Virus record (IMG/VR): IMGVR_UViG_3300048588_000276
Coordinates: 1-40,330 of that record
Origin: a virus
Direction: 5' to 3' (one strand)
Length of the DNA stretch: 40,330 nt
Every line of letters begins with the position of its first letter. Positions within the stretch are counted from its first letter, which is position 1. Of the stretch, positions 4,288-38,052 are shown in pieces. The notes beneath the pieces were generated by a model. The model saw only the letters and a program-made list of their open reading frames with translations. It searched no databases and had not been told where the DNA came from. Made by a program: the position numbers and the translations under genes.

Positions 4288-4685
4288 CCACCCCCGTCCG
4301 CATCCAGCTCCGGCGCTCCAAGGGCTGGCGGATGCCTGCGGGCGCCGTCAAGGTCGACCGGACCACACCGTTCGGCAACCCGTTCGTCGTCGGCCGCGAC
4401 GGGACCCGCGAGGAGTGCGTGCGGTGGCACAGGCTGCTGCTCCACGGCTACATCCTGCTGTCAGGCCGGACCGGCCCCGGTGAGCTCAGGGGCCACATGC
4501 ACTGGGTCTACCGTCACCTGCACCTGCTCCGGGACGCGACCGCCCTGGCCTGCTGGTGCCCCGAAGGCGCTCCCTGCCACGCGGATACCCTCATCGAGGT
4601 GCTGGCAGCCGTCGAGGCCGAGCGGCTGGACGCGGCACGCCGGAGACGCGCGGTGTACGCGCAGCGCCGACGGTTGGCGGCATGA
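4284..4685 (+). CDS. DUF4326 family protein, 133 aa
   Basis: The family signature is clear: RIQLRRSKGWRMPAGAVKVD, then TPFGNPFVVG and, after a helical section, ALACWCPEGAPCHADTLIEV. The two Cys of CWC, the Cys of PCHAD and the GNPF turn are all present. DUF4326 proteins are small, widespread in phages and bacteria, and of uncertain function. An Arg/Ala-rich helix of about 25 residues extends beyond the usual C-terminus. The start overlaps the previous stop (ATGA). It lies two genes before a SLOG-family protein; both types are discussed in the context of nucleotide or ADP-ribose metabolism, but no reaction can be assigned here. Confidence 0.88.
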   Translation: MTTPVRIQLRRSKGWRMPAGAVKVDRTTPFGNPFVVGRDGTREECVRWHRLLLHGYILLSGRTGPGELRGHMHWVYRHLHLLRDATALACWCPEGAPCHADTLIEVLAAVEAERLDAARRRRAVYAQRRRLAA

Positions 4686-7909: not shown

Positions 7910-9408
7910 CCATCGCTGTGGCTTCCACGTCACGCACCCGGAGACCGAAGCCGCCCTCGCTGGTGGGCAGTCCCTCTCCCCGCCTCGCTCCGCCCGTCCC
8001 AGCGAGGTCCGACGTCCCGGCGCTCGTCGCCGTCGCCGAGTCGATGGGCATCCGGCTGATGCCCTGGCAGGAATCCGCGGCGCGCTACCTGACCGCCACA
8101 TCGAAGGACGGCATGCACCTCTACCGGGAGGTGTGCATCGTGGTGGCCCGCCAGAACGGCAAGACCGCGCTCATGAAGCCCTACATCGTCCAGGCGCTCA
8201 AGGCCGGCCGCCGGGTGCTCCACATCGCGCAGAACCGGGAGCTGCCACGCGAGATGTTCGGGCTCGTCGCCGACGCCCTCTCCGCCGAGCCCGACCTGTT
8301 CCAGACACGCAGGGGCAAGATCATCTGGCCTCGGTATGGCAGCGGCCAGGAGGAGATCCTTCTCAAGAACGGGGCCAAGTACCGGATCGCCGCATCGAAC
8401 CGAGGTGGAGCCCGCGGCAAGGACGCCATCGACCTGCTCATCATCGACGAGCTCCGGGAGCAGGTGGACTGGGACGTCATCAGCGCGGCCGAACCGACGA
8501 TGACGATGTCGGCGGACCCGCAGACCGTCTACCTCTCCAACATGGGCGACGACGATTCCGTCGTCCTCAACTCCCTCCGTGCGCGAGCCGGCCATGACCC
8601 GCATCCGCTCGGAGCGGGACCGTTCGAGCCGGATGCGAGCCTGGCGTATCTGGAGTGGAGCGCAGCACCGCACCGGGCCGATGACGACCGCGAGGGATGG
8701 GCCGAGGCGAACCCCGCGCTGGGGCACTTCCCCCAGGTCCTCCGTGAGCTCGAGCGCACGCACCGCGCCCGGAAGGCTGACGGGCAGATGGGCATCTTCG
8801 AGACCGAGCGGCTGTGCCGGCGGTCGCGGACGATGCGCGAGCCGCTCGTCGCGGTCGCGACGTGGGTCGCCTGCGCCGAGCCGGCGCTCCCGCCGCCCGT
8901 CAAGCCGTACCTCGCGGTCAGCATGGACCCCAGCGGCGGCAGGGCCAGTGTCGCGATGGCCTGGCGCTTGGACGATGGCCGGGTGGCGCTGCGGATGCTC
9001 GGTGACTTCACGGGCAGCGCGGACGGCAAGCCCATCGACACGGACAAGCTGGGCCGGATCATCAAGGAGCAGGCCCGCGAGCACAGGGCTCAGGGCCTCG
9101 GCTTCGACCCGATGACCGACACCGCTCTGTCCCGCTTCGCCGACCGATCCCATCCGATCAGCGCGACCACGTTCGCCAACGCCTCGGCGCGGTTCGTGAC
9201 CGCCATCGCGGCAGGGACGCTCCGCTGGACGGACGCGGCGCCCGTCACCGAGGACCTGCTGTACACCACCCGCAAGGTGAACGACGAGAAGGGCAGCTTC
9301 GAAGCTGTCCGCGGCAAGGACGACCGCCCCATCACCGCCAGCCTCGCCGCCATCCGCGCCGTGTGGCTGGCATCCGATCCGCCGAAGACGAAGCGGGCCT
9401 CGTTCTGA
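7906..9408 (+). CDS. Terminase large subunit, 500 aa
   Basis: GTG 7906 overlaps the HNH stop. The ATPase domain shows a LMPWQ adenine-type motif, Walker A ARQNGKT at residues 81-87 and Walker B LLIIDE at 177-182. The C-terminal half carries RNase-H-fold nuclease features: VSMDPSGGRASVAMAW, then LGFDPMTDTALSRFADRS and a late NDEKGSFEAVRGKDDRP. The protein is full length. It cuts concatemeric DNA and powers translocation into the prohead through the portal. It resembles actinophage siphovirus terminases more than lambda or T4 types, which is a recollection and not a computed match. Confidence 0.96.
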   Translation: MTIAVASTSRTRRPKPPSLVGSPSPRLAPPVPARSDVPALVAVAESMGIRLMPWQESAARYLTATSKDGMHLYREVCIVVARQNGKTALMKPYIVQALKAGRRVLHIAQNRELPREMFGLVADALSAEPDLFQTRRGKIIWPRYGSGQEEILLKNGAKYRIAASNRGGARGKDAIDLLIIDELREQVDWDVISAAEPTMTMSADPQTVYLSNMGDDDSVVLNSLRARAGHDPHPLGAGPFEPDASLAYLEWSAAPHRADDDREGWAEANPALGHFPQVLRELERTHRARKADGQMGIFETERLCRRSRTMREPLVAVATWVACAEPALPPPVKPYLAVSMDPSGGRASVAMAWRLDDGRVALRMLGDFTGSADGKPIDTDKLGRIIKEQAREHRAQGLGFDPMTDTALSRFADRSHPISATTFANASARFVTAIAAGTLRWTDAAPVTEDLLYTTRKVNDEKGSFEAVRGKDDRPITASLAAIRAVWLASDPPKTKRASF

Positions 9409-9410
9409 CC

Positions 9411-9426
9411 TCCCCATCCATGGGGA
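9411..9426. promoter_or_regulatory. 16-bp dyad between terminase and portal
   Basis: TCCCCAT and ATGGGGA face each other across two bases in the 54-bp gap between terminase and portal. The loop is too small for a good RNA hairpin unless inner pairs open, so a protein-binding site or processing element is as likely as a terminator. Confidence 0.4.
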
Positions 9427-9462
9427 TAGGCGGACCGGGCCGGTCACGCTGAGATTGGCTTG

Positions 9463-10812
9463 ATGATGCTCTCCGCCGAGCAGGCCGTGACGCGAGCCCA
9501 GAAGCTGCACGAACAGCGTGAGGCGGAGCGGCTGCGTCTCGACGAGGTCCGACGGTACTGGGTCGGCCGTCAGAAGCTGCCAGCGGTCATCCCCGCCGCG
9601 TCGCCCGACGAGGTCCGTCTGCTCGCCCGCCTCTCGCGGGTGAACGTGGTGGGCATCGTGGTCGAGAGCCTGGCACAGAGCCTGGCCGTCGAGGGGTTCC
9701 GGGGCAAGCGGCAGCCGGACAACACCGAGGTGTGGAGCATCTGGCAGGCAAACCGGCTTGATGCTCGGCAGTCGATCATCCACCGCGCCGTCCTTGCCTA
9801 TGGCGTCGCCTACGCCGTCGTGACGCCGGGCTCGCCCGCTCCGGTCATCCGGGGCCTGTCGCCGCGGCGCCTGACCACGCAGTACGAGACCGTTGACGCC
9901 GACTGGCCGACCTACGCGCTCGAGCACCGGTCTGGGAAGTCCTGGCGTCTCTACGACGCCGGCGGCGTGTACGAGCTGACCGGTGACAGCGGGAGGTTCG
10001 AGTTCGTCGCTCACGCGGAGCACGGCGCAGGCGTGACGCCGGTCATCAGGTACCTGGAGGTCCAGGACCCTGACTGGGATGACGAGCCGTCCAACGAGAG
10101 CCACACCGGGGCCTATGCCGCGGACCGACAGGTCATCGGCGAGGTCGCTGGCCTGATGACCATCCAGGACCAGATCGACCTGATCACGTTCAACCTGCTC
10201 GTGGCCCAGCACTACGCCGCGTTCCGGCAGCGGTTCGTCATCGGGTGGCTGGCGCCGGACGAGCAGACCCGCATGAAGATGGGCGCCTCGACCTGGCTGA
10301 CGTTCGAGGACGAGCCGGACAAGGTCAAGGTCGGGGACCTCGAGGCGACCCCGCTGGACGGCTACCTGGCGAGCCGGCAGGCCAGCTTCCGTCAAGCGGC
10401 CTCTCTCTCGCAGACGCCGGCCCATGAGCTGATCGGGGAGCTCGTGAACCTCTCCGCCGAGGCGCTCGCGGCAGCCGAGGCCGGACGGGATCGCAAGGTC
10501 GCCGATCGCCAGACCACGATCGGAGAGGCCCACGAGCAGACGCTCTCCCTGGCCGGGAGGCTCGCCGGCATCACTGTCCCGCAGGATGCGCAGGTCGTCT
10601 GGCGTGACACCTCGGCGCGCAGCTTCGCCGCCACGGTCGACGGGCTCGGGAAGCTCGCGCAGATGCTCGGGGTCCCGCAGGACGAGCTCTGGGAGCGCAT
10701 CCCCGGTGTCAGCCAGCAGGACGTGCAGCGTTGGCGCACGGAGCGCCAGTCCCGTGCCGCGGCCGCGGCCGGCTTCGGTGCCCCGACGGTCAGCCGGCCA
10801 GGGGGCGCATGA
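9463..10812 (+). CDS. Portal protein (SPP1 gp6-like), 449 aa
   Basis: The sequence follows the gp6 portal family. There is a helical N-terminus, then a conserved SRVNVVGIVVESLAQSLAVEG. A wing region follows, then FNLLVAQHYAAFRQRFVIG and a long crown helix containing SASLSQTPAHELIGELVNLS-like residues around 325-350. ATG 9463 or 9466 could start it; a TTG at 9460 is also in frame, and no ribosome binding site is obvious. The protein forms the dodecameric ring at one capsid vertex through which DNA enters and to which the connector binds. Its place between terminase and scaffold is standard. Confidence 0.93.
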   Translation: MMLSAEQAVTRAQKLHEQREAERLRLDEVRRYWVGRQKLPAVIPAASPDEVRLLARLSRVNVVGIVVESLAQSLAVEGFRGKRQPDNTEVWSIWQANRLDARQSIIHRAVLAYGVAYAVVTPGSPAPVIRGLSPRRLTTQYETVDADWPTYALEHRSGKSWRLYDAGGVYELTGDSGRFEFVAHAEHGAGVTPVIRYLEVQDPDWDDEPSNESHTGAYAADRQVIGEVAGLMTIQDQIDLITFNLLVAQHYAAFRQRFVIGWLAPDEQTRMKMGASTWLTFEDEPDKVKVGDLEATPLDGYLASRQASFRQAASLSQTPAHELIGELVNLSAEALAAAEAGRDRKVADRQTTIGEAHEQTLSLAGRLAGITVPQDAQVVWRDTSARSFAATVDGLGKLAQMLGVPQDELWERIPGVSQQDVQRWRTERQSRAAAAAGFGAPTVSRPGGA

Positions 10813-10904
10813 ACCGAGGAAGGGCCCGACAGGGCCTTCGTGACCCATCACCAGTGTCCCCCGCCATGGGGGTTCACACCACCCGACAGGGAGGAAGACC
10901 ATGA
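10809..10904 (+). CDS. Possible 31-aa ORF bridging portal and scaffold
   Basis: ATG 10809 overlaps the portal stop and the ORF ends with an ATGA overlap on the scaffold start, the same coupling used elsewhere in this genome. The product is basic (MNRGRARQGLRDPSP) with no family. The same 96 bases hold two hairpin-forming repeats: AAGGGCCC/GGGCCTT, with one bulged base, and CCCCC/GGGGG around GCCAT. The region may therefore act as a structured leader that adjusts scaffold and coat expression, and translation is uncertain. Confidence 0.4.
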   Translation: MNRGRARQGLRDPSPVSPAMGVHTTRQGGRP

Positions 10905-11443
10905 CCGAGGAGTCCGGGAAGACCGAGGCCGCCGCCGCCGACACGGATGGCGCGGACGAGGCCGCCGTGGCGACCGTCGACCACGAGGCGGAGGCCGCCA
11001 AGTGGAAGGCGCTCGCTCGCAAGCACGAGGCCGACGCCAAGAAGAACGCGGCAGCAGCCAAGCGCCTGGGAGAGGTCGAGGACGCCGACAAGTCGGAGAT
11101 CCAGCGAGCCACCGACAAGGCGGCCGCCGCAGAGGCACGGGCCATCGCAGCCGAGCTCAGGGCCGACAGGCTCGAGGTCGCGGCCGCGAAGGGCCTCTCG
11201 CCGTCACTGGCGGCACGGCTCGTGGGCCAGACCCGCGAGGAGCTCGAGGCGGATGCCGACGAGCTGCTGAAGGTCGTTAAGCCGGCAGCCGGTGAAGCGA
11301 CCAAGGACACCACCCAGCAGGCAGCGAACGGAACGGCCGAGCGTGGCCGGCCCCGGGAATCCCTGCGCTCGGGCACGGCCCCCCAGGTCGAGCCCGAGGA
11401 GAACGACCCCACCAAGCTCGCGGCACTGATCCCGCGAGGCTGA
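10901..11443 (+). CDS. Capsid scaffolding protein, 180 aa
   Basis: A GGGAGGAAG ribosome binding site precedes ATG 10901. The product is highly charged and Ala/Glu/Lys-rich. A coiled-coil core at about residues 27-100 (EAEAAKWKALARKHEADAKK and AEARAIAAELRADRLEVAA) leads into AAKGLSPSLAARLVGQTREE and a flexible Pro/Gly/Thr tail. This is the standard GP20/scaffold pattern in siphoviruses. It would organise the coat protein during prohead assembly and then leave. The gene lies between portal and coat as expected. No protease gene is seen, so scaffold release rather than cleavage is likely. Confidence 0.9.
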   Translation: MTEESGKTEAAAADTDGADEAAVATVDHEAEAAKWKALARKHEADAKKNAAAAKRLGEVEDADKSEIQRATDKAAAAEARAIAAELRADRLEVAAAKGLSPSLAARLVGQTREELEADADELLKVVKPAAGEATKDTTQQAANGTAERGRPRESLRSGTAPQVEPEENDPTKLAALIPRG

Positions 11444-16342: not shown

Positions 16343-18742
16343 ATGGCAGGGCTGTCCATCGGGGAGATCTGGAGCGCGCTCCGGGTCGACGGATCGAAGG
16401 CGAAGGCCGACGCCGCCAAGGCGGGCGGCGAGGCTGGGGATGCCGCGAGCAAGGAGATGGGCAGCCGCCTCAAGAAGGGCGCTGCGGTCATCGCCGGGGC
16501 GCTGTCGGGGGCCCTCTCCGTGGCGCTCATCGGCCGGTTCGCCGCGCTCGAACGGGCCACGGCGAAGTTCCGCCAGGAGACCGGTTCCACGGCAGAGGAG
16601 GCCGAGCGGGCCGGGCGCGCCATCAACGACATGGCCGGGCGCAACCTCCAGCCCGTCGAGGAGATCGGCGACACCCTCGCGCGGGTCACCACGGACCTCG
16701 GGCTGACTGGAGACGAGGCGTCACGCACCGCCGAGCAGTTCCTGCGCTTCGGGCAGGCGACGGGCCAGAACGCGGCGCAGGCGGTGTTGGCGTTCGACGA
16801 CATCCTCGATGCCTGGGGTCTGACGGCGCAGGACGCGCAGGGCGTCATGGATGCGCTTGTCCTCAGCCATCAGAAGTACGGCGGCTCGATCGAGGAGAAC
16901 CAGCGCACCCTCGCGGAGCTGGCGCCGGCGCTGACCGCCGCGAACCTCTCATGGGAGGACGGGGTCGGCATCCTGAACATGTTCAACGCGGCGGGCGTCG
17001 ATGCAGGCTCCGCCGTCACGGGCATGCAGAAGGCGCTCACCCAGGTGAAGTCGCCCGAGGAGCTTCAGGCGCTGCTCGATGACATCACCGCGACCGAGGA
17101 TCCGTTCCTGCGGGCTACGAAGGCGGCGGACCTGTTCGGCACGCGGGCGGGCGCGAAGCTCGCCACGGCCCTCGGGAACGGCGGACTTGACGACTATCGC
17201 GTTAACCTCGACGAGGCCGCGGGCGCCACGGACCGCGCCGCGGACGCCAGCAAGACGATGGTCGACCGCATCCGCCAGGCGTTCTCGGGGTTCATCAGCT
17301 GGTCGGTGGACACCCTGGGACCGGCCGGACCACTGCTCACCGCGGTGGGATCGCTCGGCACGCTCTTCGCCCCCGCGCTCTCGAAGGTCTGGAAGGCGCT
17401 GGTGGGCAACGCGGGTATCAAGGGTGCCATCGCGCTGGCGGGGGCAGCGGCAGGCGGGGTCTACTCCGCAGCCGCAGCGGGCGTCTCGCTGCTGGCGACG
17501 GCGTTGTCCGGGGCGTGGGCTGCGATGGGCCTGCCGACCTCCAAGGCCATGATCGCTGCCGTCACCACCGGGCGAGCGCTCGGACTGGCGGCCGGCGCGG
17601 CCGCCGCAGCGGCCATCCTCACGATCCCGTTGATCGTCGCGGGCGACCGCGGTCCGACCGAGGATCCAATGTTCCGTATCCAGGAGATCGAGCGTGCGCT
17701 CCAGCATCTGCGCACGCTCGATCCGACCGCCTCGTGGGGGACAGGAACCGTGGCGGACACCATCGCGAATCTCGAAGCCCAGATCGAGGCGCTGCGCGAC
17801 GGCAACGTGGATCTGGCGAACTCGATCCGCGACCACGGCATCCCGGCGATCGAGGACCTGGGCAGGTCGGGGGAGGACGCAGGCCGAGCGCTCACCAAGG
17901 ACGTCTGGGGCCTCATCAATGGGATTGGCGACCAGATGGCGGAAGGCATGGGCGAGGCAGGAGAGAGGGGTGGCCGGTCGCTCGAGCAGGGTGTGCGACA
18001 GACCGTCCCCCAGATGCGGGCTCAGTGGCGCCAGATGGCGCACGACCAGGTGGGGATCATCTACCTCGGGATGCGCGAGTCGGTGGACGCGATGCGGACC
18101 GGTGTCGTGGACATGAAGGACCGCGTGAGGACCGGCAAAGCCGCGATCGTCGAGCAGTTCCGCGACCTCGCATGGCAGAGCAAGCACCCATTCCGCGAAG
18201 AGAACTACGCCAAGTGGTTGGAGGGCCGCTACCAGGACGCGATGAACAAGGCGGAGCGCGCCGCGAAGCGCGGCAAGCCTGGCGTCGCGGCGCAGTACCG
18301 CCAGCTCGCGGATGAGATCAAGGCCGAGATGAACAGCCTGCCGGGCGTCGCGGCCGAGAACGCACGCAGGGCGATCGCGGCGCTTGCTCCGCTAATCGCT
18401 CGGGTGGGCACCATCCCCGAGATGTTGAGCAATGCGATCTCGGGAGTCTTCGGCGGGCCTCGCGTGCCGGGCTTCGCCGACGGAGGAGTCCCACCGCGGA
18501 CCGGCCCCTTCTGGGTCGGTGAGCGCGGTCCGGAGCTGATGACCCTGAACCCGCCGCGTATCTACGACGCCCAGACCTCCGCTGCGATGGCCATGGGCCC
18601 GACGCAGGTCGTCGAGCACATCCACCGTGCCGATCGCGAGACCGTCCAGCTCGCCCGCGACATGGGTGTCCCGCTCGGGGACGTCCTCCTCGCCGCGGAG
18701 CGCTCCGCCGGCGCGTCGTACAGCGAGCCCCGGAGGTTCTGA
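16343..18742 (+). CDS. Tail tape measure protein, 799 aa
   Basis: The protein is long and helical. An N-terminal LKKGAAVIAGALSGALSVAL precedes a TP901-type core: EAERAGRAINDMAGRNLQPV, FNAAGVDAGSAVTGMQKALT and DPFLRATKAADLFG. Hydrophobic segments lie at about 330-435 (VYSAAAAGVSLLATALSGAW; LGLAAGAAAAAAILTIPLIV). The C-terminus has the common tape-measure ending FADGGVPPRTGPFWVGERGP. It sets tail length and enters the host envelope during DNA ejection. By the usual 1.5 angstrom per residue rule, 799 residues imply a tail near 120 nm, which is inference. No lytic transglycosylase or peptidase module is visible. Confidence 0.95.
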   Translation: MAGLSIGEIWSALRVDGSKAKADAAKAGGEAGDAASKEMGSRLKKGAAVIAGALSGALSVALIGRFAALERATAKFRQETGSTAEEAERAGRAINDMAGRNLQPVEEIGDTLARVTTDLGLTGDEASRTAEQFLRFGQATGQNAAQAVLAFDDILDAWGLTAQDAQGVMDALVLSHQKYGGSIEENQRTLAELAPALTAANLSWEDGVGILNMFNAAGVDAGSAVTGMQKALTQVKSPEELQALLDDITATEDPFLRATKAADLFGTRAGAKLATALGNGGLDDYRVNLDEAAGATDRAADASKTMVDRIRQAFSGFISWSVDTLGPAGPLLTAVGSLGTLFAPALSKVWKALVGNAGIKGAIALAGAAAGGVYSAAAAGVSLLATALSGAWAAMGLPTSKAMIAAVTTGRALGLAAGAAAAAAILTIPLIVAGDRGPTEDPMFRIQEIERALQHLRTLDPTASWGTGTVADTIANLEAQIEALRDGNVDLANSIRDHGIPAIEDLGRSGEDAGRALTKDVWGLINGIGDQMAEGMGEAGERGGRSLEQGVRQTVPQMRAQWRQMAHDQVGIIYLGMRESVDAMRTGVVDMKDRVRTGKAAIVEQFRDLAWQSKHPFREENYAKWLEGRYQDAMNKAERAAKRGKPGVAAQYRQLADEIKAEMNSLPGVAAENARRAIAALAPLIARVGTIPEMLSNAISGVFGGPRVPGFADGGVPPRTGPFWVGERGPELMTLNPPRIYDAQTSAAMAMGPTQVVEHIHRADRETVQLARDMGVPLGDVLLAAERSAGASYSEPRRF

Positions 18743-18745
18743 GCG

Positions 18746-21700
18746 ATGGCGATCAAGAGCAGGTCCATCGCGCTCAAGCGATCCACCCGGCTCGCCAAGG
18801 AGGGCTCGTTCGAGGCGGGCGCCGGCAAGGACGACCGCCTCGCCATCGGCATCCTCTCGAGCGACAGCCGGCGGCAGCGCGCCTACGCCCGCCTGGCGGA
18901 CAACCGCTTCCCGGCGACGTTCTGGGACGGCATGTTCAAGGTCGACCGCGTCGAGCTCTGGGGCTACAAGGTCTCCTACTACCGGACGACCGAGGGCGGC
19001 CCTGGCCGTGTCCGCGTCCGGCGGGCGACGGCCGGCCAGGCGGAGGGCACGAGCCCCACGCTCTCCTCGAGCAACGGCGGCGGCGCCGTCTGGCCCGGCC
19101 CTGCGACCCACGCGGGATCCGAGGTCCGGGGTCCGGCGATCCCCTCGGGCACCGGGAAGTGGGTGAAGATCGCCGACGTCACCACCCCGTCGAAGGTCTG
19201 GTGGCCGCAGTCGCTCGGCGGGACCGGCTCGAAGGTCAACGGCGACGACATGCTCGGCCTCGTGCTGGCCCAGGACGGCGACGACTGGTCCGGCAGCCCG
19301 GGCTTCACCAGCACCACCGACAACGTCGAGTTCGCCTCGGACGACTGGGGCGATGGCTCCAAGCGCCTCGAGCTCCGCGTCTTCTACGACGACAACCGCC
19401 CGCCGAGCACCCCGACCGTGACCAGCCCGGAGCCGGGCAGCACGGACGGCGTGGTGGTCGGCACCACGGCGGGCACCGAGCTGTCGGTCGAGTACACCTA
19501 CGCCGACCAGGACGGCGACGCGATCGGCGCCCACGAGCTCGAGGTCTACCCCCAGAGCGTCACCGATGAGACGGCGACCACGGCGAACCGCACGGCCACG
19601 ACCGGCGCGGTCGCGCCGGGCGACGCGATCGCGTTCCTCAAGTACCGGGCGACCATCGCCAACCTGCCGGCGAGGGCGGACCTCCGGTACCGGCTCCGGG
19701 TGCGCGACGCGCGCGGCGCCTGGTCGGGCTGGACATCGCTCGCCGACGGCCGCTTCCAGACGGCCCACCGCCCGGGCGCGCCGCTCCAGTCGGTGATGAC
19801 GACGAACCCGGAGGCGGTCACGATCGCGGGCACCCTCAACGGCCCGGGCACGATCTCGGGCTGGGAGGGCGAGTTCTACCGCGACACCCAGCAGGGGTCC
19901 GTGACCCTGTGGGCGCCGGGGATGCAGGACATCGGGGGGGCCTCGACGCGCTCCTCGGTCCCCTGGGCCGGCGTCCAGTTGAACGACGGCGATGTGGTCC
20001 GCTGGCGCCACCGGCACCGGAACGAGGACGGCGTGGTCGGTGACTGGTCGTCCTGGCTGACCACCACGATGCGGACGCCGGTCGGCACCACGATCTCGCC
20101 GGCGGACACGACCACCAAGCTGACGACCCGGACACCGACGCTCACCCTCACCTTCCCCGAGGCGTCCGACGCGTACCGGCTGCTCGTCCGCCGCAACGGC
20201 GAGCAGATCTGGGATTCCGGCACCGTGGCCTGCACCCCCGGCACGAGCGCCTCGGCCGTGATCGCGGCGGCCGCGGGGCTCACCTGGGGCGACACCTTCG
20301 AGGTGCAGGCGGCGGGGCGCCCGAGCGGCACGAGCGCGGCGCCGGGCCCCTTCGGCCCCTGGACCACGCTCTACATCACCACCCTGCCCACGACGTCGAT
20401 CGCGGCCAGCGATGGCGACGTGGCGGGCTCCGTGGTGCCGACCACCGACATCCTGTGGGAGACGCCCTACCTTGATCCCGACGCGGTCCGGTACGGGGAG
20501 ACGCCGGCGGCCAAGGAGCTGGAGCTGCGGGTCGCGGCCAGCCCGCCCGGCTCGGGGACACGGATCACCAAGCGGACCTCGGTGTCGCGCATCCTCGAGG
20601 CGGAGCGCACGGGACGCCGGATCCTGGCGCTCACCGATGCGACGGGCTGGTCGGCCGCGTCCAACGTCACGGCGGACACCGAGGCGATCGCGCCGACCGG
20701 CTACTCGGGGAACAGCCTGCGCATCCGGGCGACCGGCGGCAGCTCCACCGACCGGGCGGCGACGTACACCTTCCCCACGCCGCTCGACCTCTCCGACCTC
20801 GGCGACGGCGCCGTGCTCCGCATCTGGGTCCGCTGCACGTCGACGACGAACCTCACGCGCTGGGACCTGCGGCTGCGGACCGATTCGGGGAACCTCGTGC
20901 TCTACGAGCTCTTCGCCGCGGCGGGCACGCCGGACACCTGGGTGGAGATCGCCGTCCCCCTGGGGAAGACCACGAGCGGCTCCGGGACCGTCGACTGGTC
21001 GAGCATCGCCAGCATCCAGTTCATGGCGGACGTCTCGGGCGCGTACACCGGAGACCTCCAGGTCCGGGACCTGCGCATCGGCACGGTGCGGACCGCGAAG
21101 GACACGCCCGATGGCCACATTGCGTCCGAGGCCTTCTACGACACGCGGGCTCGCTTCCGTGACAACGCCGACGGGAAGATGCTCACGACGCTCGCGGCCG
21201 CGGTGTCGGCCGGGGCGACGAACGTCAAGGTGAACAACGTCGTGGGGATGTCGGTGGGTGACGAGCTCACCATCGGCACGACGCACCCGATCGAGACACG
21301 CCGCATCACCGCCGTCGGGACGTCGGGCTCGGGTGGCACCGGGGTCACCGTCGCGGAGGCGTTCGACTTCAACCACGACAGCGGCAAGAACGTCCGGATC
21401 TGGTACTGGGGCCCGTGGACGCCCTGGCTGACCGTCAAGGCGTCCCTGCCGCCCGAGGTGGCCGCGGACACGCCGGCGGATGCCGCGGTGCTGGCGGACC
21501 CGACGCCGGCGCTCGCCCACACGTACAGCAGCCCGGGCAGCAAGGCCCAGGCGCTCCGGACCACACGTCTGTACCGGCGCCTCGGGTTCGCGAAGCGCGT
21601 CGCCGCGATGGCGCCGGCGTCGTGGTGGCGGCTGGGCGAGGCCTCCGGGTCCGTCCTCGACTCGGCGGGATCGATCGCCGGGACGGCGGGCGGCACCATC

Positions 21701-23098
21701 ACGCGCGCCACGGCCGGCGCCTTCGGGGCCCTCGACGCGGACGGGTCCATCACCCTCGGATCGGACGGCTACATCCAGTTCGGCGACGTCCACGACTTCG
21801 GCGGCACCGACCCCTTCACGGCGGCGATCCTCATCAAGCCGTCCACCCCGTTCCAGGTCGGCGACCGGATCTGGAGCAAGGAGGGCACGGGTTCGGGCTG
21901 GGCGGTCCGGCTGACCGGCACCAGCGGAGCGGTCCGATTCGAGCGCTTCGATGGTGCGGGTTCGGACTTCATCGCGAGCACCGATCTGCTCGTGGCGGAT
22001 GCGTGGAACCTGGTCATCGCGAAGTACGACGGGAGCACGCTCCGCCTGACCATCAACGGAGGCACCGCGGTGTCGGGCGCCTCCGCGCGCAGCAACCCCG
22101 GCAACACGGGCCAGCTGCGGATCGGCGCCAACTCGGTGGGTGGCAGCTACCTGTCCTGCCCCGTGGACGAGGGCATCATCTGGACGCGCTCGATCACGGC
22201 CGCGGAGGAGGCGGCGCTCTGGGCCGCGATCACGGAGACGCCGACCGAGGAGCTGGTCGACGAGCGCGATGCGAGCGGCGCCGGGCTGACCGACACGGTG
22301 GTGCGGCTCCTGCTCGCGGACGGCGGCACCTATGGCTGGGAGAAGACCGCCTACGACACGGACGGCCTGGCCGACACCACGGCGCGCCGCTGGTTCCTCG
22401 CGGACCTCACGGCGCCGGCGGCCGTGGCCGACCTGGTCGCCACGGCGGACGCGGCCTCGGGCGCCATCACGATCACATGGACGGCGTCGGTCGACCCGTA
22501 TCTCGACCACTACCGGGTCTACTGGCGCAACGGCGCCGGCGAGCGGATCCGCATCGACGGCGGGCCGGCGGAGGTCGATGACGGGCGCGAGCCGCTGACC
22601 GAGGCGACCTTCACCTGGTATGGCGGGCGCCTGGGCGACAACGATCTCGAGGTCACCGTGCACAACGGCTCGCAGGAGTCCGAGCCCACGACCGTCTCGG
22701 TCAGCCTTGACCCCATCCGCGCCGGAGCGTGGGCACTGGTCGGGGACGATGAGGACCGGTACACGTTCGCGTTCGACCCGACGCGCGCACCACGGGTGCA
22801 CAACCCCCACATCGAGACGATGCGACCACCCGGTCGACGCAGGCCGGTCCATCTCCTGTGGGGGACGTCGGGGAAGCGGGTGTCGGTGACCTTCGCCTAC
22901 CTGCCGTCCGAGGATGGCGACCTCGCGACGATCGTCGGCGAGCTCCTCGAGCGGGGCGTCGCGACGTGGCTCAAGGCGCCCGAAGGGTACGTCCAGGACC
23001 CGCTCCGCGTCCGGACGGTGGATGCCCGGGACGAACCCGAGACGGGCGGGTGGGTGTCGGTCAGCATCGAGCTCGACGAGGTCGCGATCGATGTATGA
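18746..23098 (+). CDS. Large multidomain minor tail protein with LamG and Fn3 domains, 1450 aa
   Basis: Several modules follow each other. An N-terminal 1-220 beta region comes first, then Ig/Fn3-like repeats to about 630 and a carbohydrate-binding-like jelly roll at about 635-780. Residues 813-888 repeat the domain inserted in the major tail protein. A LamG/concanavalin-like domain spans about 950-1165 (MAPASWWRLGEASGSVLDSA). An Fn3 domain lies at about 1218-1312 (AAVADLVATADAASGAITIT), and a C-terminal 1325-1450 segment resembles a distal-tail-type core. The protein probably sits at the tail tip and binds surface glycans. The combination of distal-tail-like and adhesin-like parts in one chain is unusual. 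The next gene overlaps its end by eight bases. Confidence 0.85.
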   Translation: MAIKSRSIALKRSTRLAKEGSFEAGAGKDDRLAIGILSSDSRRQRAYARLADNRFPATFWDGMFKVDRVELWGYKVSYYRTTEGGPGRVRVRRATAGQAEGTSPTLSSSNGGGAVWPGPATHAGSEVRGPAIPSGTGKWVKIADVTTPSKVWWPQSLGGTGSKVNGDDMLGLVLAQDGDDWSGSPGFTSTTDNVEFASDDWGDGSKRLELRVFYDDNRPPSTPTVTSPEPGSTDGVVVGTTAGTELSVEYTYADQDGDAIGAHELEVYPQSVTDETATTANRTATTGAVAPGDAIAFLKYRATIANLPARADLRYRLRVRDARGAWSGWTSLADGRFQTAHRPGAPLQSVMTTNPEAVTIAGTLNGPGTISGWEGEFYRDTQQGSVTLWAPGMQDIGGASTRSSVPWAGVQLNDGDVVRWRHRHRNEDGVVGDWSSWLTTTMRTPVGTTISPADTTTKLTTRTPTLTLTFPEASDAYRLLVRRNGEQIWDSGTVACTPGTSASAVIAAAAGLTWGDTFEVQAAGRPSGTSAAPGPFGPWTTLYITTLPTTSIAASDGDVAGSVVPTTDILWETPYLDPDAVRYGETPAAKELELRVAASPPGSGTRITKRTSVSRILEAERTGRRILALTDATGWSAASNVTADTEAIAPTGYSGNSLRIRATGGSSTDRAATYTFPTPLDLSDLGDGAVLRIWVRCTSTTNLTRWDLRLRTDSGNLVLYELFAAAGTPDTWVEIAVPLGKTTSGSGTVDWSSIASIQFMADVSGAYTGDLQVRDLRIGTVRTAKDTPDGHIASEAFYDTRARFRDNADGKMLTTLAAAVSAGATNVKVNNVVGMSVGDELTIGTTHPIETRRITAVGTSGSGGTGVTVAEAFDFNHDSGKNVRIWYWGPWTPWLTVKASLPPEVAADTPADAAVLADPTPALAHTYSSPGSKAQALRTTRLYRRLGFAKRVAAMAPASWWRLGEASGSVLDSAGSIAGTAGGTITRATAGAFGALDADGSITLGSDGYIQFGDVHDFGGTDPFTAAILIKPSTPFQVGDRIWSKEGTGSGWAVRLTGTSGAVRFERFDGAGSDFIASTDLLVADAWNLVIAKYDGSTLRLTINGGTAVSGASARSNPGNTGQLRIGANSVGGSYLSCPVDEGIIWTRSITAAEEAALWAAITETPTEELVDERDASGAGLTDTVVRLLLADGGTYGWEKTAYDTDGLADTTARRWFLADLTAPAAVADLVATADAASGAITITWTASVDPYLDHYRVYWRNGAGERIRIDGGPAEVDDGREPLTEATFTWYGGRLGDNDLEVTVHNGSQESEPTTVSVSLDPIRAGAWALVGDDEDRYTFAFDPTRAPRVHNPHIETMRPPGRRRPVHLLWGTSGKRVSVTFAYLPSEDGDLATIVGELLERGVATWLKAPEGYVQDPLRVRTVDARDEPETGGWVSVSIELDEVAIDV

Positions 23099-24209
23099 CG
23101 TCGATGCCGCGGTGCTGGCCGCGATCCGGAGCTCGCACGTCACGGTGCTGGCACGCGTCTCGGCGCTGACCGCGGACGGCTCGATCGTGGGCACCTGGGG
23201 CGCGGGCGACGAACGCCTCGAGGATGGCTCGGTCACCTTCGACCGGACGCGCGCGGCGCGGCGGTCTGCGGTCCTGACGCTCGCGAACCCGACGGGCGAC
23301 CTGGCACCCAGGGAGGCGGGGGACCCGTTCTTCACCGGCGAGCGGATCCGGTGCGAGCGGGGGATCGTGCTGCCGTCCGGCATCGCCTGGATCCCGCTGT
23401 TCGAGGGCGTGGTGACCGACTTCCGGGCGACCAGCACCGGGCACCTGGCGGTGTCGGCGCAGGATCCCTTCTGGCTGTGCCAGCAGCCCCTCGGGGACCT
23501 GGTCACCCTCTCGACCGGCACGCGGGCGGAGGACGCCGTCAGGACGTTCCTGGAGCCTGTGCTGGGCGATGACTCCCCCTGGTCGCTCGACGGCTACGGA
23601 CGCACCCTGACGGCCCCGCGCTCCTTCCTCGAGGACGATGACCGCCTCGCGTCGATCGTGGGCCTGGTGAGCGACCTGGGGCTCGAGCTGTACGCGGACC
23701 GGCGCGGCCGACCGGTGCTGCGGCCGCGGACGGACCCGACCACGGCGGCCACCGTCCGCACGTTCCGGGACGACGAGGACGCCTGGATGCTGGAGCTGTC
23801 GCGCTCGGGTGCCCGGCTGCCATACAACCGGGTCATCGTGGTGAGCGCGAGCCCGTCGGGTGCCGTGCTGCGCGCGGAGGCGGAGGTCACCGATCCCGCA
23901 TCGCCCATCCACCGGGACCGGATCGGCCTGCGCACCGCGCCCATCCATCGCTCGGCGCAGATCCCGGACCAGGCGACCGCCAACGCCGTGGCCCGGGCGC
24001 TGCTCGTGGAGTACGCGCTCGTCGTCGACGCGGTCGGCGGATCCGCGGTCCCGGACCCGACGCTCGACGAGGACGACGTCGTCGCCTTCGAGGACGAACC
24101 GAGCGGCACGGCCGGCCGGTATCGCATCGACCAGGTGACGCACCCCCTGGCCATGGGGCCGATGTCGCTCGCGACCACCCGGGTCGCGCCGATCTTCCTG
24201 ACCGCATGA
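23091..24209 (+). CDS. Tail hub / DUF5047-like minor tail protein, 372 aa
   Basis: ATG 23091 overlaps the previous stop (ATGTATGA). The N-terminus (SHVTVLARVSALTADGSIVG, then VTFDRTRAARRSAVLTLANP) and the central FLEDDDRLASIVGLVSDLGL, ELYADRRGRPVLRPR follow the pattern of actinophage minor tail proteins of the DUF5047/hub class, which resemble the gp27-like domain of baseplate hubs. It would close the tail tube and bind the fibre. No enzymatic motif is visible. The fibre gene overlaps its end (ATGA). Confidence 0.78.
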   Translation: MYDVDAAVLAAIRSSHVTVLARVSALTADGSIVGTWGAGDERLEDGSVTFDRTRAARRSAVLTLANPTGDLAPREAGDPFFTGERIRCERGIVLPSGIAWIPLFEGVVTDFRATSTGHLAVSAQDPFWLCQQPLGDLVTLSTGTRAEDAVRTFLEPVLGDDSPWSLDGYGRTLTAPRSFLEDDDRLASIVGLVSDLGLELYADRRGRPVLRPRTDPTTAATVRTFRDDEDAWMLELSRSGARLPYNRVIVVSASPSGAVLRAEAEVTDPASPIHRDRIGLRTAPIHRSAQIPDQATANAVARALLVEYALVVDAVGGSAVPDPTLDEDDVVAFEDEPSGTAGRYRIDQVTHPLAMGPMSLATTRVAPIFLTA

Positions 24210-34471: not shown

Positions 34472-34854
34472 CCATCACCACTCCGAAGCCCACCCGAGCC
34501 CCGAACCTGCGAGAGCGCTACGACGTGCTCGCGAGCTCGGGCTTCCGGTGCGACTACTGCGGCCGCGGCAAGGCCGATGGCGCCCGCCTGTCGGTGGATC
34601 ACGTGGTGGCGCGAGCCGCCGGGGGGACCCACGACCGCGTCAACCTGGTGACCGCCTGCACGACGTGCAACCAGGGCAAGGCCGATCGCCCCATCCCCTA
34701 CCCCCGGTGGGAGCGGATCGGCGCAGAGCGATGGGACCGCTGCGAGTGTTCCGGTGGCCCTGCGGCGCTCGAGGCATCCCCCACCGAGCCGATGCTGCTC
34801 TGCACCGCCTGCCGGTACCCAGCGTTCCAGCGCACCTTCGGCGCCGCCCGATGA
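34468..34854 (+). CDS. HNH endonuclease, 128 aa
   Basis: ATG 34468 overlaps the previous stop. The HNH motif is complete: GFRCDYCGRGKADGARLSVD, HVVARAAGGTHDRVNLVTAC, TTCNQGK, with the D-H pair, Asn and final zinc Cys residues. A second Cys pair region follows (RCECSG and LLCTACRYP). It lies between the SSB-like and primase genes. It may act in replication, recombination or as a mobile homing-type element. No intron or intein is seen nearby. Confidence 0.88.
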   Translation: MTITTPKPTRAPNLRERYDVLASSGFRCDYCGRGKADGARLSVDHVVARAAGGTHDRVNLVTACTTCNQGKADRPIPYPRWERIGAERWDRCECSGGPAALEASPTEPMLLCTACRYPAFQRTFGAAR

Positions 34855-37274
34855 CCGCGGCCGTCGCTGCCCCCCGCCCGACCAACGAGGCGCGGATCAA
34901 GGCCGCGCTCTGGTTCGCCGAGCAGGGCTTCGGCGTGTTCTCCTGCTGGTCGACCTGGCCGGATGGTCGCTGCCGCTGTCCAGGCGGGCGTGACTGCACC
35001 CCCGGCAAGCACCCGATGACGCAGCACGGGCTCGACGACGCCACCACGGACCCCAAGGCCATCCGCGCGATGCTGTCGGCCGCGTCCGACCCCAACTACG
35101 GGCTGCTGCCGCCGGATGGTGTCTTCGTCTGGGACGTGGACGGCGAGGGCTGGGAGCAGCGACTCGCGGAGCTCGAGAGCCAGCACGGCCCGCTACCGGA
35201 CACGATCCGGACCGCGACCCGTAACGGCCAGCACATCTACCTGCGGTGGCCGGACAGCCACCCGCGGCCGCTCAAGGCGATGTTCGGATGGGTGACCCGC
35301 TGGGGCACCGGCGCGTCGAACCGACGGGGGTACGTGATCGGCCCCCGATCCGTTCACGCGTCCGGCTTTGAGTACGCCCCGGTCGGCGCCTTCACGCTGG
35401 CGACGCTACCGGATGCCTGGGCCCGCGCTGCGCTGGAGGGTGAGACGGCGCTCGGGACCATCCGCATCGGTGGCTCGGCCGACCCCTCCACCGTCGCGAT
35501 CGGCGGCCGCCACGACTGGCTGCGCAACCGAGCCCGATTCCTGGCCGGTGTCATCCGGGATCCCGAGACGCTGCTCACGGTGATGCTCGCGGAGAACGAC
35601 CGGCTGCCCTCGCCGAAGACGCGCGATGATGTCGCCCGGGCCATCGGCGACGCGCTGGTGAAGTTCCCTGCGGATGAGGTGGAGACCACGGAGGATGGCG
35701 CGGAGCGCCGCGTGTCGGCCGCGACCGATGACCCCGGCATCCTGCCACCACCGACGTCCGACGCCTTCCCGGAGCCGCCCGATGCGATCGCGTTCGGCGG
35801 CCTCGTAGGCGAGTGTGTCCGGTCCTTGGCCGCGCACACCGACGCCTCCCTGGCTGGCCTCCTGGCGTCGTTCCTGGCCGTCTGTGGCGCCCTGGTGCCC
35901 TCCAGCGCCCACGCCCGCGGGGAGCAGACCAGCAGCCCGTTCATCGCGCTGGTGGGCGAGTCCGGTATCGGGCGCAAGGGCACCGCCATGAACCGGGGCC
36001 TGGGCGCCGCCCGGCTCGTCTGGCCGACCGAGGAGGTGGAAGACATCCTGCTCGACGGCCTGAACAGCGGAGAGGCGCTGGTGGCCGCCCTGCACGACCA
36101 GGCGGAAGCCAACCGGCGGTATCGCCGCGGCGATGGGCCGGTGGTCGGGCTCGTGTTCGAGGAGGAGTTCGTCAACATGCTCTCCTCCCGGGCCCGCGAT
36201 GGATCGACGCTCGACGGGAAGCTGCGCGTGGCGTTCGATGGTGGGTCGCTGTCAAACCGGAAAGCCAACGATTCCAAGGTGGTCCGCTCAGGCTACGTCC
36301 TGCCCGCCCTGGCCGGCATCACGCCACTGGAGCTCCGGCAGCGCCTGGAGAAGGACTCGGCACACACGGGCGCCGCGAACCGGTGGCTGTACGTGCCGGT
36401 CGTCAAGCGCGACGAGATCGTGCCCGACGAACCACCAGAGCTCCCGCTGGAGCTGAACGTCGCCCTCAAGAAGGCGCGGGCCGAATCACCCCGCAGGCTC
36501 ACCGTGACGCCGGCGACGGCGCGCCTGGTGTCCGAGTACGCCGAGCACGTCACGACGACATCCGCGGGTGTCGCCCGCGACCTGGTGCGGCGATACGGGA
36601 CCATCGCGGTCCGGCTGGCGATGATCCACGCCGCCGTGGAGCGGTCGCCGGTGGTCGGTGCCCAGCACCTCGAGCGAGCGGTGGCCCTGACCGAGTACGC
36701 ACGGCGCGGCATCGCGTGGGTGTTCGGCCAGACGATCGGCAGCCGCGACGCCGACCTGCTCCTGCGGCACCTCCGCCAGTCCGGGCCGCTGCGGAAGAAC
36801 ACCATCACCCGGCACATCATCCGGGACCCCCAGCGGCAGCAGGACGCTATCGACGAGCTCGTGCGCCTGGGGTATGCGGCCGTCGAGATCACCGCCCCGA
36901 CCACCGGCGGGCGCCTCACGCAGCTCCGGGCGACCGGCCTGGGGGTGGCGTTCGTCCCGTTCGTCCAAGTATTCGCGGAATCACATGGCGTGAATCACGT
37001 AAACCTTGGACGTCTGGACGAACGACCCCCGATTGAGCACGAAATGGCGGGTTTCGGACTGGACGAACGGTGGACGAACGCGGGACGAACGGTGGACGAA
37101 CGCGGTCATACGGAGCCATCCGAGGCGGTCGTCGACATCACCACCGGTGAGGTGGAGCCACGGGGGTCAGCCGAGTGGGCGGCCCCATGTCGCGCCTACA
37201 CCGAGCACCGCGACCACCACCGGAACACCCCGGCCGGGTGGGTGTGCCTGGCCTGCGCGCCACAGGAGGGATGA
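34851..37274 (+). CDS. Primase-polymerase fused to DUF3987-type helicase, 807 aa
   Basis: ATG 34851 overlaps the HNH stop. Residues 10-200 are a bifunctional primase/polymerase (archaeo-eukaryotic fold): FGVFSCWSTWPDGRC and KHPMTQHGLDDATTD, then catalytic D95 and D97 in FVWDVDGEGW, H128 in NGQHIYLRW, and GYVIGPRSVHASGFEYAP. The C-terminal part has a Walker-type loop GESGIGRKGT (369-378, K376), EEEFVNMLSSRARDGS and a winged-helix-like end. It would prime and unwind DNA at the origin. Its last 100 residues contain a chain of 11-bp DNA repeats, so the end of the gene probably doubles as an origin. Confidence 0.93.
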   Translation: MTAAVAAPRPTNEARIKAALWFAEQGFGVFSCWSTWPDGRCRCPGGRDCTPGKHPMTQHGLDDATTDPKAIRAMLSAASDPNYGLLPPDGVFVWDVDGEGWEQRLAELESQHGPLPDTIRTATRNGQHIYLRWPDSHPRPLKAMFGWVTRWGTGASNRRGYVIGPRSVHASGFEYAPVGAFTLATLPDAWARAALEGETALGTIRIGGSADPSTVAIGGRHDWLRNRARFLAGVIRDPETLLTVMLAENDRLPSPKTRDDVARAIGDALVKFPADEVETTEDGAERRVSAATDDPGILPPPTSDAFPEPPDAIAFGGLVGECVRSLAAHTDASLAGLLASFLAVCGALVPSSAHARGEQTSSPFIALVGESGIGRKGTAMNRGLGAARLVWPTEEVEDILLDGLNSGEALVAALHDQAEANRRYRRGDGPVVGLVFEEEFVNMLSSRARDGSTLDGKLRVAFDGGSLSNRKANDSKVVRSGYVLPALAGITPLELRQRLEKDSAHTGAANRWLYVPVVKRDEIVPDEPPELPLELNVALKKARAESPRRLTVTPATARLVSEYAEHVTTTSAGVARDLVRRYGTIAVRLAMIHAAVERSPVVGAQHLERAVALTEYARRGIAWVFGQTIGSRDADLLLRHLRQSGPLRKNTITRHIIRDPQRQQDAIDELVRLGYAAVEITAPTTGGRLTQLRATGLGVAFVPFVQVFAESHGVNHVNLGRLDERPPIEHEMAGFGLDERWTNAGRTVDERGHTEPSEAVVDITTGEVEPRGSAEWAAPCRAYTEHRDHHRNTPAGWVCLACAPQEG
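36950..37104. other. Iteron cluster with A+T-richer element, candidate replication origin
   Basis: GGACGAAC occurs five times directly (37016, 37061, 37072, 37083, 37094) and twice inverted (36950-36957, 36959-36966). The last four copies are exactly 11 bp apart, alternating GGT and GCG endings. Between the inverted and direct sets lies 36967-37010, with 20 G+C in 44 bases, far below its surroundings, including a GAATCAC direct repeat (36978, 36992). The 11-bp period is not a multiple of three, so the repeats are not explained by protein repeats. Iterons beside an unwinding element inside a replication gene recall lambda ori in gene O. Confidence 0.7.
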
Positions 37275-37457: not shown

Positions 37458-37498
37458 ACGGTCCGGATGCGATCGACATGCGGAGGCAGGTGGCATGA
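37454..37498 (+). CDS. Possible 14-aa coupling peptide
   Basis: ATG 37454 overlaps the previous stop, and the stop overlaps the next ATG at 37495. The peptide MNGPDAIDMRRQVA has no recognisable function. CGGAGGCAGG inside it is the ribosome binding site of the next gene. It may only transfer ribosomes between genes. Confidence 0.35.
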   Translation: MNGPDAIDMRRQVA

Positions 37499-38052
37499 AG
37501 GTCACCTTCCGGCCGCTGCCCACGTGGCCGCACGCCGAGACGAAGCCGCGCCGGCACGCCCAGTTCAAGGCGCCGTGGAACGCGACGCTCCAGGACCTCG
37601 AGTACGAGATCGGGCGCCTCGACGGCAAGGGCGTCGTCGTCGGTGCCGGGTTCCGCGAGAGTGACCTCCGCATGGACGGGATGCCCCGCGCCGACCGGCG
37701 CCAGGCGCCCTACCTGCATCCCGGCGTCGAGGTCAGCTTCGACAGCCGCTACGGCCGCCTGACCTACGCCACCGACCAGTACACCGACTGGAAGGCCAAC
37801 GTGCGGGCGATCGCGCTGTCGCTGGAGGCCCTGCGCTCGGTCGACCGCCATGGGGTGAGCAAGCGCGGCCAGCAGTACGCAGGGTGGGCACAGCTCGGCC
37901 CTGGCGGCCCGGACGCCGATCGCGGCCGGCGCCTGGTCGAGCAGCACGGCGGGATCCGGCCAGCCCTCATGGCGACGCATCCCGACCACGGGGGAGACCC
38001 CCGCGACTTCGCCGACGTCCAGGCCTTCCGAGAGCGGGAGGGCGACGCCTGA
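37495..38052 (+). CDS. J-domain-like (DnaJ HPD) phage protein, 185 aa
   Basis: ATG 37495 is preceded by GGAGGCAGG. Residues 30-125 form an alpha/beta domain of unknown type (FKAPWNATLQDLEYEIGRLD, YGRLTYATDQYTDWKANVRA). The C-terminus, LMATHPDHGGDPRDFADVQA, is the second half of a J domain, including the HPD tripeptide that activates Hsp70. The same combination is common in actinophages. It may recruit the host DnaK to the replication complex, as lambda uses DnaJ/DnaK, but this is inferred. The normal first helix of a J domain is not recognisable. Confidence 0.8.
   Translation: MKVTFRPLPTWPHAETKPRRHAQFKAPWNATLQDLEYEIGRLDGKGVVVGAGFRESDLRMDGMPRADRRQAPYLHPGVEVSFDSRYGRLTYATDQYTDWKANVRAIALSLEALRSVDRHGVSKRGQQYAGWAQLGPGGPDADRGRRLVEQHGGIRPALMATHPDHGGDPRDFADVQAFREREGDA

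Follow-up and report, generated by a model that had tools for sequence, protein, structure and literature searches.

Positions 36950-37101 of the window very probably form a replication origin (we put the probability at about 0.86), which would be bound, opened and primed by the primase-helicase encoded by the surrounding gene. The window is the whole stretch of DNA analysed, the 40,330-base virus record IMGVR_UViG_3300048588_000276 of IMG/VR, in which tail, head and packaging genes are present. The origin interpretation had been put forward in a sequence-only reading of this DNA, and it is supported by the density of the repeats in the record and by the comparison with relatives. The features involved are listed in Table 1.

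We infer binding, melting, helicase loading and origin activity for 36950-37101. The primase-helicase would bind the GGACGAAC iterons through its own C-terminal winged helix and assemble on both iteron sets; the A+T-richer core between the sets would be opened, the protein would load itself as helicase and its Prim-Pol domain would prime synthesis. With the frame continuing through the origin to the conserved Cys/His tail, the origin DNA would also encode a poorly conserved linker.

Table 1. Coordinates of the proposed initiator gene, its domains and the candidate origin in the window
Feature	Position	Strand	Remarks
Primase-helicase gene, proposed replication initiator	34851..37274	+	807 aa, ATG 34851 (start codon checked)
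Prim-Pol (primase-polymerase) domain	34905..35414	+	Pfam match, residues 120-289 of longer ORF
DUF3987 domain, predicted helicase of mobile elements	36141..36701	+	Pfam match, residues 532-718 of longer ORF
Winged-helix codons, C-terminal, proposed iteron-binding domain	36744..36932	+	AlphaFold2 model, Foldseek
Left iteron 1, GGACGAAC, inverted	36950..36957	-	Exact match
Left iteron 2, GGACGAAC, inverted, 9 bp from left iteron 1	36959..36966	-	Exact match
A+T-richer core, proposed melting site, 47% G+C	36967..37015	.	Lowest-GC windows overlap
Single iteron, GGACGAAC, at right edge of core	37016..37023	+	Exact match
Right array iteron 1, GGACGAAC	37061..37068	+	Exact match
Right array iteron 2, GGACGAAC, 11-bp spacing	37072..37079	+	Exact match
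Right array iteron 3, GGACGAAC, 11-bp spacing	37083..37090	+	Exact match
Right array iteron 4, GGACGAAC, 11-bp spacing	37094..37101	+	Exact match
Cys/His tail codons (CxxYxxHRDHHRNTxxGWxCLAC), probably zinc-binding	37188..37256	+	Conserved; on far side of origin

Iterons, core and the proposed initiator

The sequence-only reading had described seven copies of GGACGAAC, five direct and two inverted, four of them 11 bp apart with two alternating endings, and a stretch of 44 bases with 20 G+C. All of this was found exactly: the seven copies lie at 36950-37101, the endings of the right array alternate between GGT and GCG, and the 44 bases are those of 36967-37010 (45% G+C, compared with a record median of about 70%). 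The core is only mildly A+T-rich; the lowest-GC windows of 44, 49 and 94 bases in the record all overlap the stretch between the iteron sets.

The motif GGACGAAC occurs ten times in the window, seven of them at 36950-37101, while whole-window shuffles contain a mean of 2.2 and a maximum of seven copies. The three remaining copies correspond to the chance expectation, and closely paired copies were found nowhere else in the record. With seven copies per 160 bp, this is the densest 8-mer clustering in the record; across 200 genomes of this 40-kb length simulated by Markov models (order 3 and 5), the 8-mer maximum was three or four copies per 160 bp. The motif is thus not equally dense elsewhere; equal density was what the sequence-only reading had named as fatal to its proposal. 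The record-wide maximum of 11-bp periodicity also falls on the iteron region.

A GC-skew turn at the site, suggested earlier as a further check, is absent: the raw minimum of the cumulative skew is at 35916, but no signal remains after detrending and comparison with block shuffles (P 0.6). There are 8 DnaA boxes in the window, with 10 expected, and no TTRTNCACA-like site near 37 kb; such boxes would be unnecessary for a self-loading initiator. An exact search of IMG/VR with the GGACGAAC iteron returned an identical contig and scattered, mostly two-copy matches, the iteron being common to no relative, and BLASTN of the iteron region against phages gave only short matches at chance level. The sole near-identical contig (L005) is 100% identical across the overlap and hence uninformative on conservation.

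In the primase-helicase, the Pfam matches to Prim-Pol (PF09250, E 2e-26) and DUF3987 (PF13148, E 1.9e-9) are both over the cut-off. DUF3987 was earlier predicted, not proven, to be a helicase, and the C-terminal winged helices of such primases were predicted to recognise origins (PMC5862659). An AlphaFold2 model of a 100-residue C-terminal piece (pLDDT 82.5) contains a winged helix with the order H-H-H-E-E, for which the best Foldseek matches are mostly MarR-type winged helices (probability 1.00, TMq about 0.6, E at least 5e-3). Neither a Pfam run on the winged helix by itself nor a sequence search of the PDB with the alignment gave a match. The whole-protein AlphaFold model, from four sequences, was poor (pLDDT 38) and was left out of the analysis.

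Elsewhere in the window, the product of positions 37495-38052, shortly 3' of the primase gene, is related to the 'DnaJ-like chaperonin' found in phages of Gordonia, Microbacterium and M. abscessus. Two long open frames, of 1709 and 1161 amino acids, run antisense to structural genes on the minus strand (18392-23521 and 7930-11415, respectively) and are probably a by-product of the high G+C content.

Relatives and the putative reader of the iterons

The nearest relatives in cellular assemblies are found in Chloroflexi and Acidobacteria MAGs. L036 (IMG/VR) and L039 (Chloroflexi MAG) encode proteins with a full-length identity to the window protein of 46% and 49-51%, respectively, tail included. 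Their iteron is a different one, GCGCAGAAG-like, at the same position, and the plan is that of the window, with an inverted left pair at 9 bp and a right array at 11 bp. In L040 (Acidobacteria MAG), the Prim-Pol domain and the tail are as in the window, the helicase is a different, RecA-like one, and repeats are located between the winged helix and the tail. Conservation of the layout with change of both the iteron and the encoded residues, in L036, L039 and L040, bears out the check on relatives that had been proposed. In each of these three loci and in the window, the strongest lag-11 signal of the locus (9-10 kb) is at the iteron site; L036 and L039, the copies of which are degenerate, are within chance in a fixed-window shuffle test, and their support is the lag-11 test. 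Separately, L040 4001-6043 and L056 892-3426 both encode a window-type Prim-Pol domain and Cys/His tail with a different middle (RecA-like AAA_25 in L040), and the helicase appears to have been exchanged between conserved ends in the two.

Ten actinophages (Hibiscus, Tarzan, Reyja, Jojo24, Santhid, TinyDot, two M. abscessus prophages, Ayotoya and Parada) have two iteron sets flanking an A+T-rich core between a homologous primase gene and the next gene, and in each locus the 50 bp poorest in G+C fall within that core. Up to the last 75 residues, identity between the primases of Tarzan and Santhid is about 98%, and within those residues it is 69% (51/74); the iterons of the two phages, CGTGGACA and CCTGGAAA, are different. 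Hibiscus and Tarzan have the same iteron, and their winged-helix ends are 96% identical. Between the window and L036 or L039, the winged helix is 36% and the helicase 46-50% identical; no dip is seen between L036 and L039 (55%, 53%), which have their iteron type in common. Winged helix and iteron change jointly in the near-identical Gordonia phages. The divergence of the winged helix tracks the change of iteron, which suggests that the enzyme reads the iterons through its own winged helix.

For a wider sample, DUF3987 genes were taken from genomes of Acidobacteriota and Chloroflexota, with the Pfam model as the sole criterion. Repeat clusters above all 19 shuffles were present at the 3' end in 22 of 39 cases, in internal segments in 2/39 and in upstream segments in 0/19 (Wilcoxon P 4.5e-6); five of the 22 positives (L129-L133) are close kin, making the number of independent cases about 18. 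The detector, which misses degenerate repeats, gave no cluster for a number of homologues (Corndog-like phages, Ibantik, P318 and Perlina). Iterons at the 3' end are therefore common, not universal, among the homologues, and the survey suggests that many unstudied DUF3987 relatives carry such a start site just behind the enzyme gene.

Three further loci were encountered. In Rhizobium phage 16-3 (L033 7136-7505), p101 is followed by a non-coding stretch in which GCGTGACA-type repeats occur 11 times, probably an origin. A Pseudonocardia broussonetiae plasmid (L034 7525-7790) has ten GCGGGGCC copies that form two opposed sets behind the primase gene, probably another origin. In L020, an unrelated viral contig, three GTTCGTCC repeats (2422-2454) are found just upstream of an ORF starting MWSRFNALIPYFGGKRS.

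The reading frame through the proposed origin

The first iteron is located 18 bases past the final winged-helix codon and the last iteron before the Cys/His tail. The frame is open over 36930-37170, so that the iterons sit within the reading frame of the initiator, and it remains open while third-position G+C drops from about 0.95 to 0.57 across the origin. The argument that the repeats are not in triplet register is right for the right array, the four copies of which are in codon frames 2, 1, 0 and 2, but it fails for the left pair, spaced at 9 bp. The left pair encodes FxxF, which is also present in L036 and L039; because of the triplet phase and this shared motif, protein constraint may contribute there. 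Synonymous resampling of the same peptide, with the codon usage of the gene or uniform usage, yielded at most four GGACGAAC copies in 5,000 trials, and permuting the region's own codons yielded seven in 1 of 5,000 trials. Conservation within the protein is lowest in the origin-encoded stretch, which is 17% and 32% identical to L036 and L039, whereas the tail behind it is well conserved (67% and 56%, respectively) and is also found in L040 and L056.

A frame running through the origin is a special feature here; in most relatives the origin is at or just after the stop codon, as in the more distant L038, L050 and L053. A universal open frame through the origin was considered and rejected: prophiGD05-1 is an exception, and bacterial DUF3987 loci do not generally show it. 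The frame is open through the origin in 8 of the 10 actinophages tested, amounting to about four independent cases (shuffle P 0.015-0.13 each). In Gordonia phages, 'hypothetical protein' genes between the primase gene and the next gene (L028 5568-5840, L029 5565-5795, L041 5277-5627 and equivalents) coincide with the predicted origin. These small ORFs in L028, L029 and L041 have 4-bp overlaps at both ends, and there are several stops in the other frames; they may stay open for translation of the operon rather than for their protein. Left repeats that overlap the gene keep a 9-bp spacing in L096, L079 and L080 and are read as C-terminal tripeptide repeats. Tripeptide repeats at the C-terminal ends of DUF3987 proteins (GDIGDIG, ESEESEESP, NSFNSFNS, NPQNPQNSKNP and AQKAQEAQK, from L096, L079, L080, L102 and L052) either coincide with 9-bp iterons at the gene end or resemble them.

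Alternatives, known replicons and significance

Short direct repeats also act as operators and centromere-like sites, and parS repeats are present downstream of repA in mycobacteriophages (PMC7157519). The iterons might be bound by some other protein, either a partition protein or a repressor, and serve to regulate the replication operon, not to start replication. We regard this as unlikely: the iteron changes together with the winged helix of the primase, the repeats are inside the gene instead of at a promoter and flank the A+T-richest DNA of the record, and the position behind DUF3987 genes recurs across phyla. A reading in which the repeats have no role as DNA and matter only as a repetitive linker in the protein would agree with the triplet phase of the left pair and with tripeptide repeats such as ESEESEESP and NSFNSFNS in some relatives. 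It is highly improbable, given a right array in three frames that synonymous resampling fails to yield, encoded residues that are the least conserved of the protein, and the many relatives with repeats after the gene and inverted copies downstream.

Equally little weight goes to a lambda-type origin, in which an O-like initiator binds iterons that its own gene contains and brings in the helicase of the host. The likeness to lambda ori noted in the sequence-only reading holds in that iterons and A+T-rich DNA are inside an initiator gene (PMC6022878). However, O is neither primase nor helicase, whereas the gene in the window encodes its own primase and predicted helicase, and the iterons are of another type: in place of four 18-bp dyad-symmetric sites in a one-sided layout, asymmetric 8-mers spaced at 9 and 11 bp flank the core on either side. 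P4 crr and the PICI pri-rep-ori module are a closer model than lambda.

In satellite phage P4, the alpha initiator likewise combines an AEP primase with a helicase, and immediately 3' of its gene are iterons of 8 bp, which occur in either orientation and are partly spaced at 9 bp. The crr region (4291-4590) is separated from the alpha end (4636) by about 46 bp, with the crr iterons 51-306 bp beyond that end. Unlike the candidate origin, crr does not overlap the gene and follows a putative terminator; P4 also possesses a further, distant origin (ori1), and the helicase domain in the window is DUF3987. PICI origins are immediately 3' of the initiator gene, always have two iteron sets around an A+T-rich region and replicate plasmids (PMC6092414). 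The helicases of SaPI, PICI and SCC recognise iterons located shortly 3' of their own genes (PMC6092414, PMC7581432), SaPI Rep and SCC Cch2 doing so via their C-terminal domains (PMC7581432). In common with PICI and SaPI, the window has iterons at the 3' end of the proposed initiator gene, in two sets around an A+T-richer stretch; its predicted C-terminal winged helix may be the counterpart of their recognition domain. The window differs in belonging to a phage and not a satellite, in having DUF3987 instead of a DUF927 or D5-type helicase, and in having its origin inside an open frame that leads to a conserved tail. In the crenarchaeal plasmid pRN1, the origin is directly behind the Prim-Pol/helicase gene (orf904) as well, but it is a 100-nt stem-loop with no iterons (PMC4234260). 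The window also differs from iteron-plasmid Rep/DnaA origins, having no DnaA boxes beside its iterons.

The proposed mechanism is of a known kind, because of these counterparts in P4, PICI, SaPI and SCC and the earlier predictions for DUF3987 and the winged helix. By analogy, the window may be described as a P4/PICI-like replicon with an initiator gene and a 3' iteron origin, in a variant with a DUF3987 initiator and the frame running through the origin. What is new is the combination of a DUF3987 initiator with an iteron origin, the co-change of winged helix and iteron, and the placement of an origin in an open frame between two conserved segments; a literature search found no paper mentioning DUF3987 together with iterons.

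More broadly, and with the odds evenly balanced, DUF3987 proteins could be a large class of self-contained initiators with private 3' iteron origins, in which the winged helix and the origin, as a single cassette, evolve together and are exchanged together, the origin being kept as translated DNA in some phage lineages (the window, L036, L039, L040 and, via the small overlapping ORF, several Gordonia phages). If the origin is indeed translated, ribosomes would traverse it, and origin and operon would share one reading frame. The C-terminal tripeptide repeats of some DUF3987 proteins would find a possible explanation as features of the DNA, not of the protein. The matched winged-helix and iteron changes in Gordonia phages would amount to a natural experiment on how initiators choose their origin. 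An anonymous patch of 155 bp becomes a testable replicon, gene and origin on about 2.5 kb, and such a module could serve in vectors for bacteria that have none. For DUF3987, a Pfam family of 'unknown function', the analysis suggests a function: that of origin-specific initiators, the origins of which are predictable.
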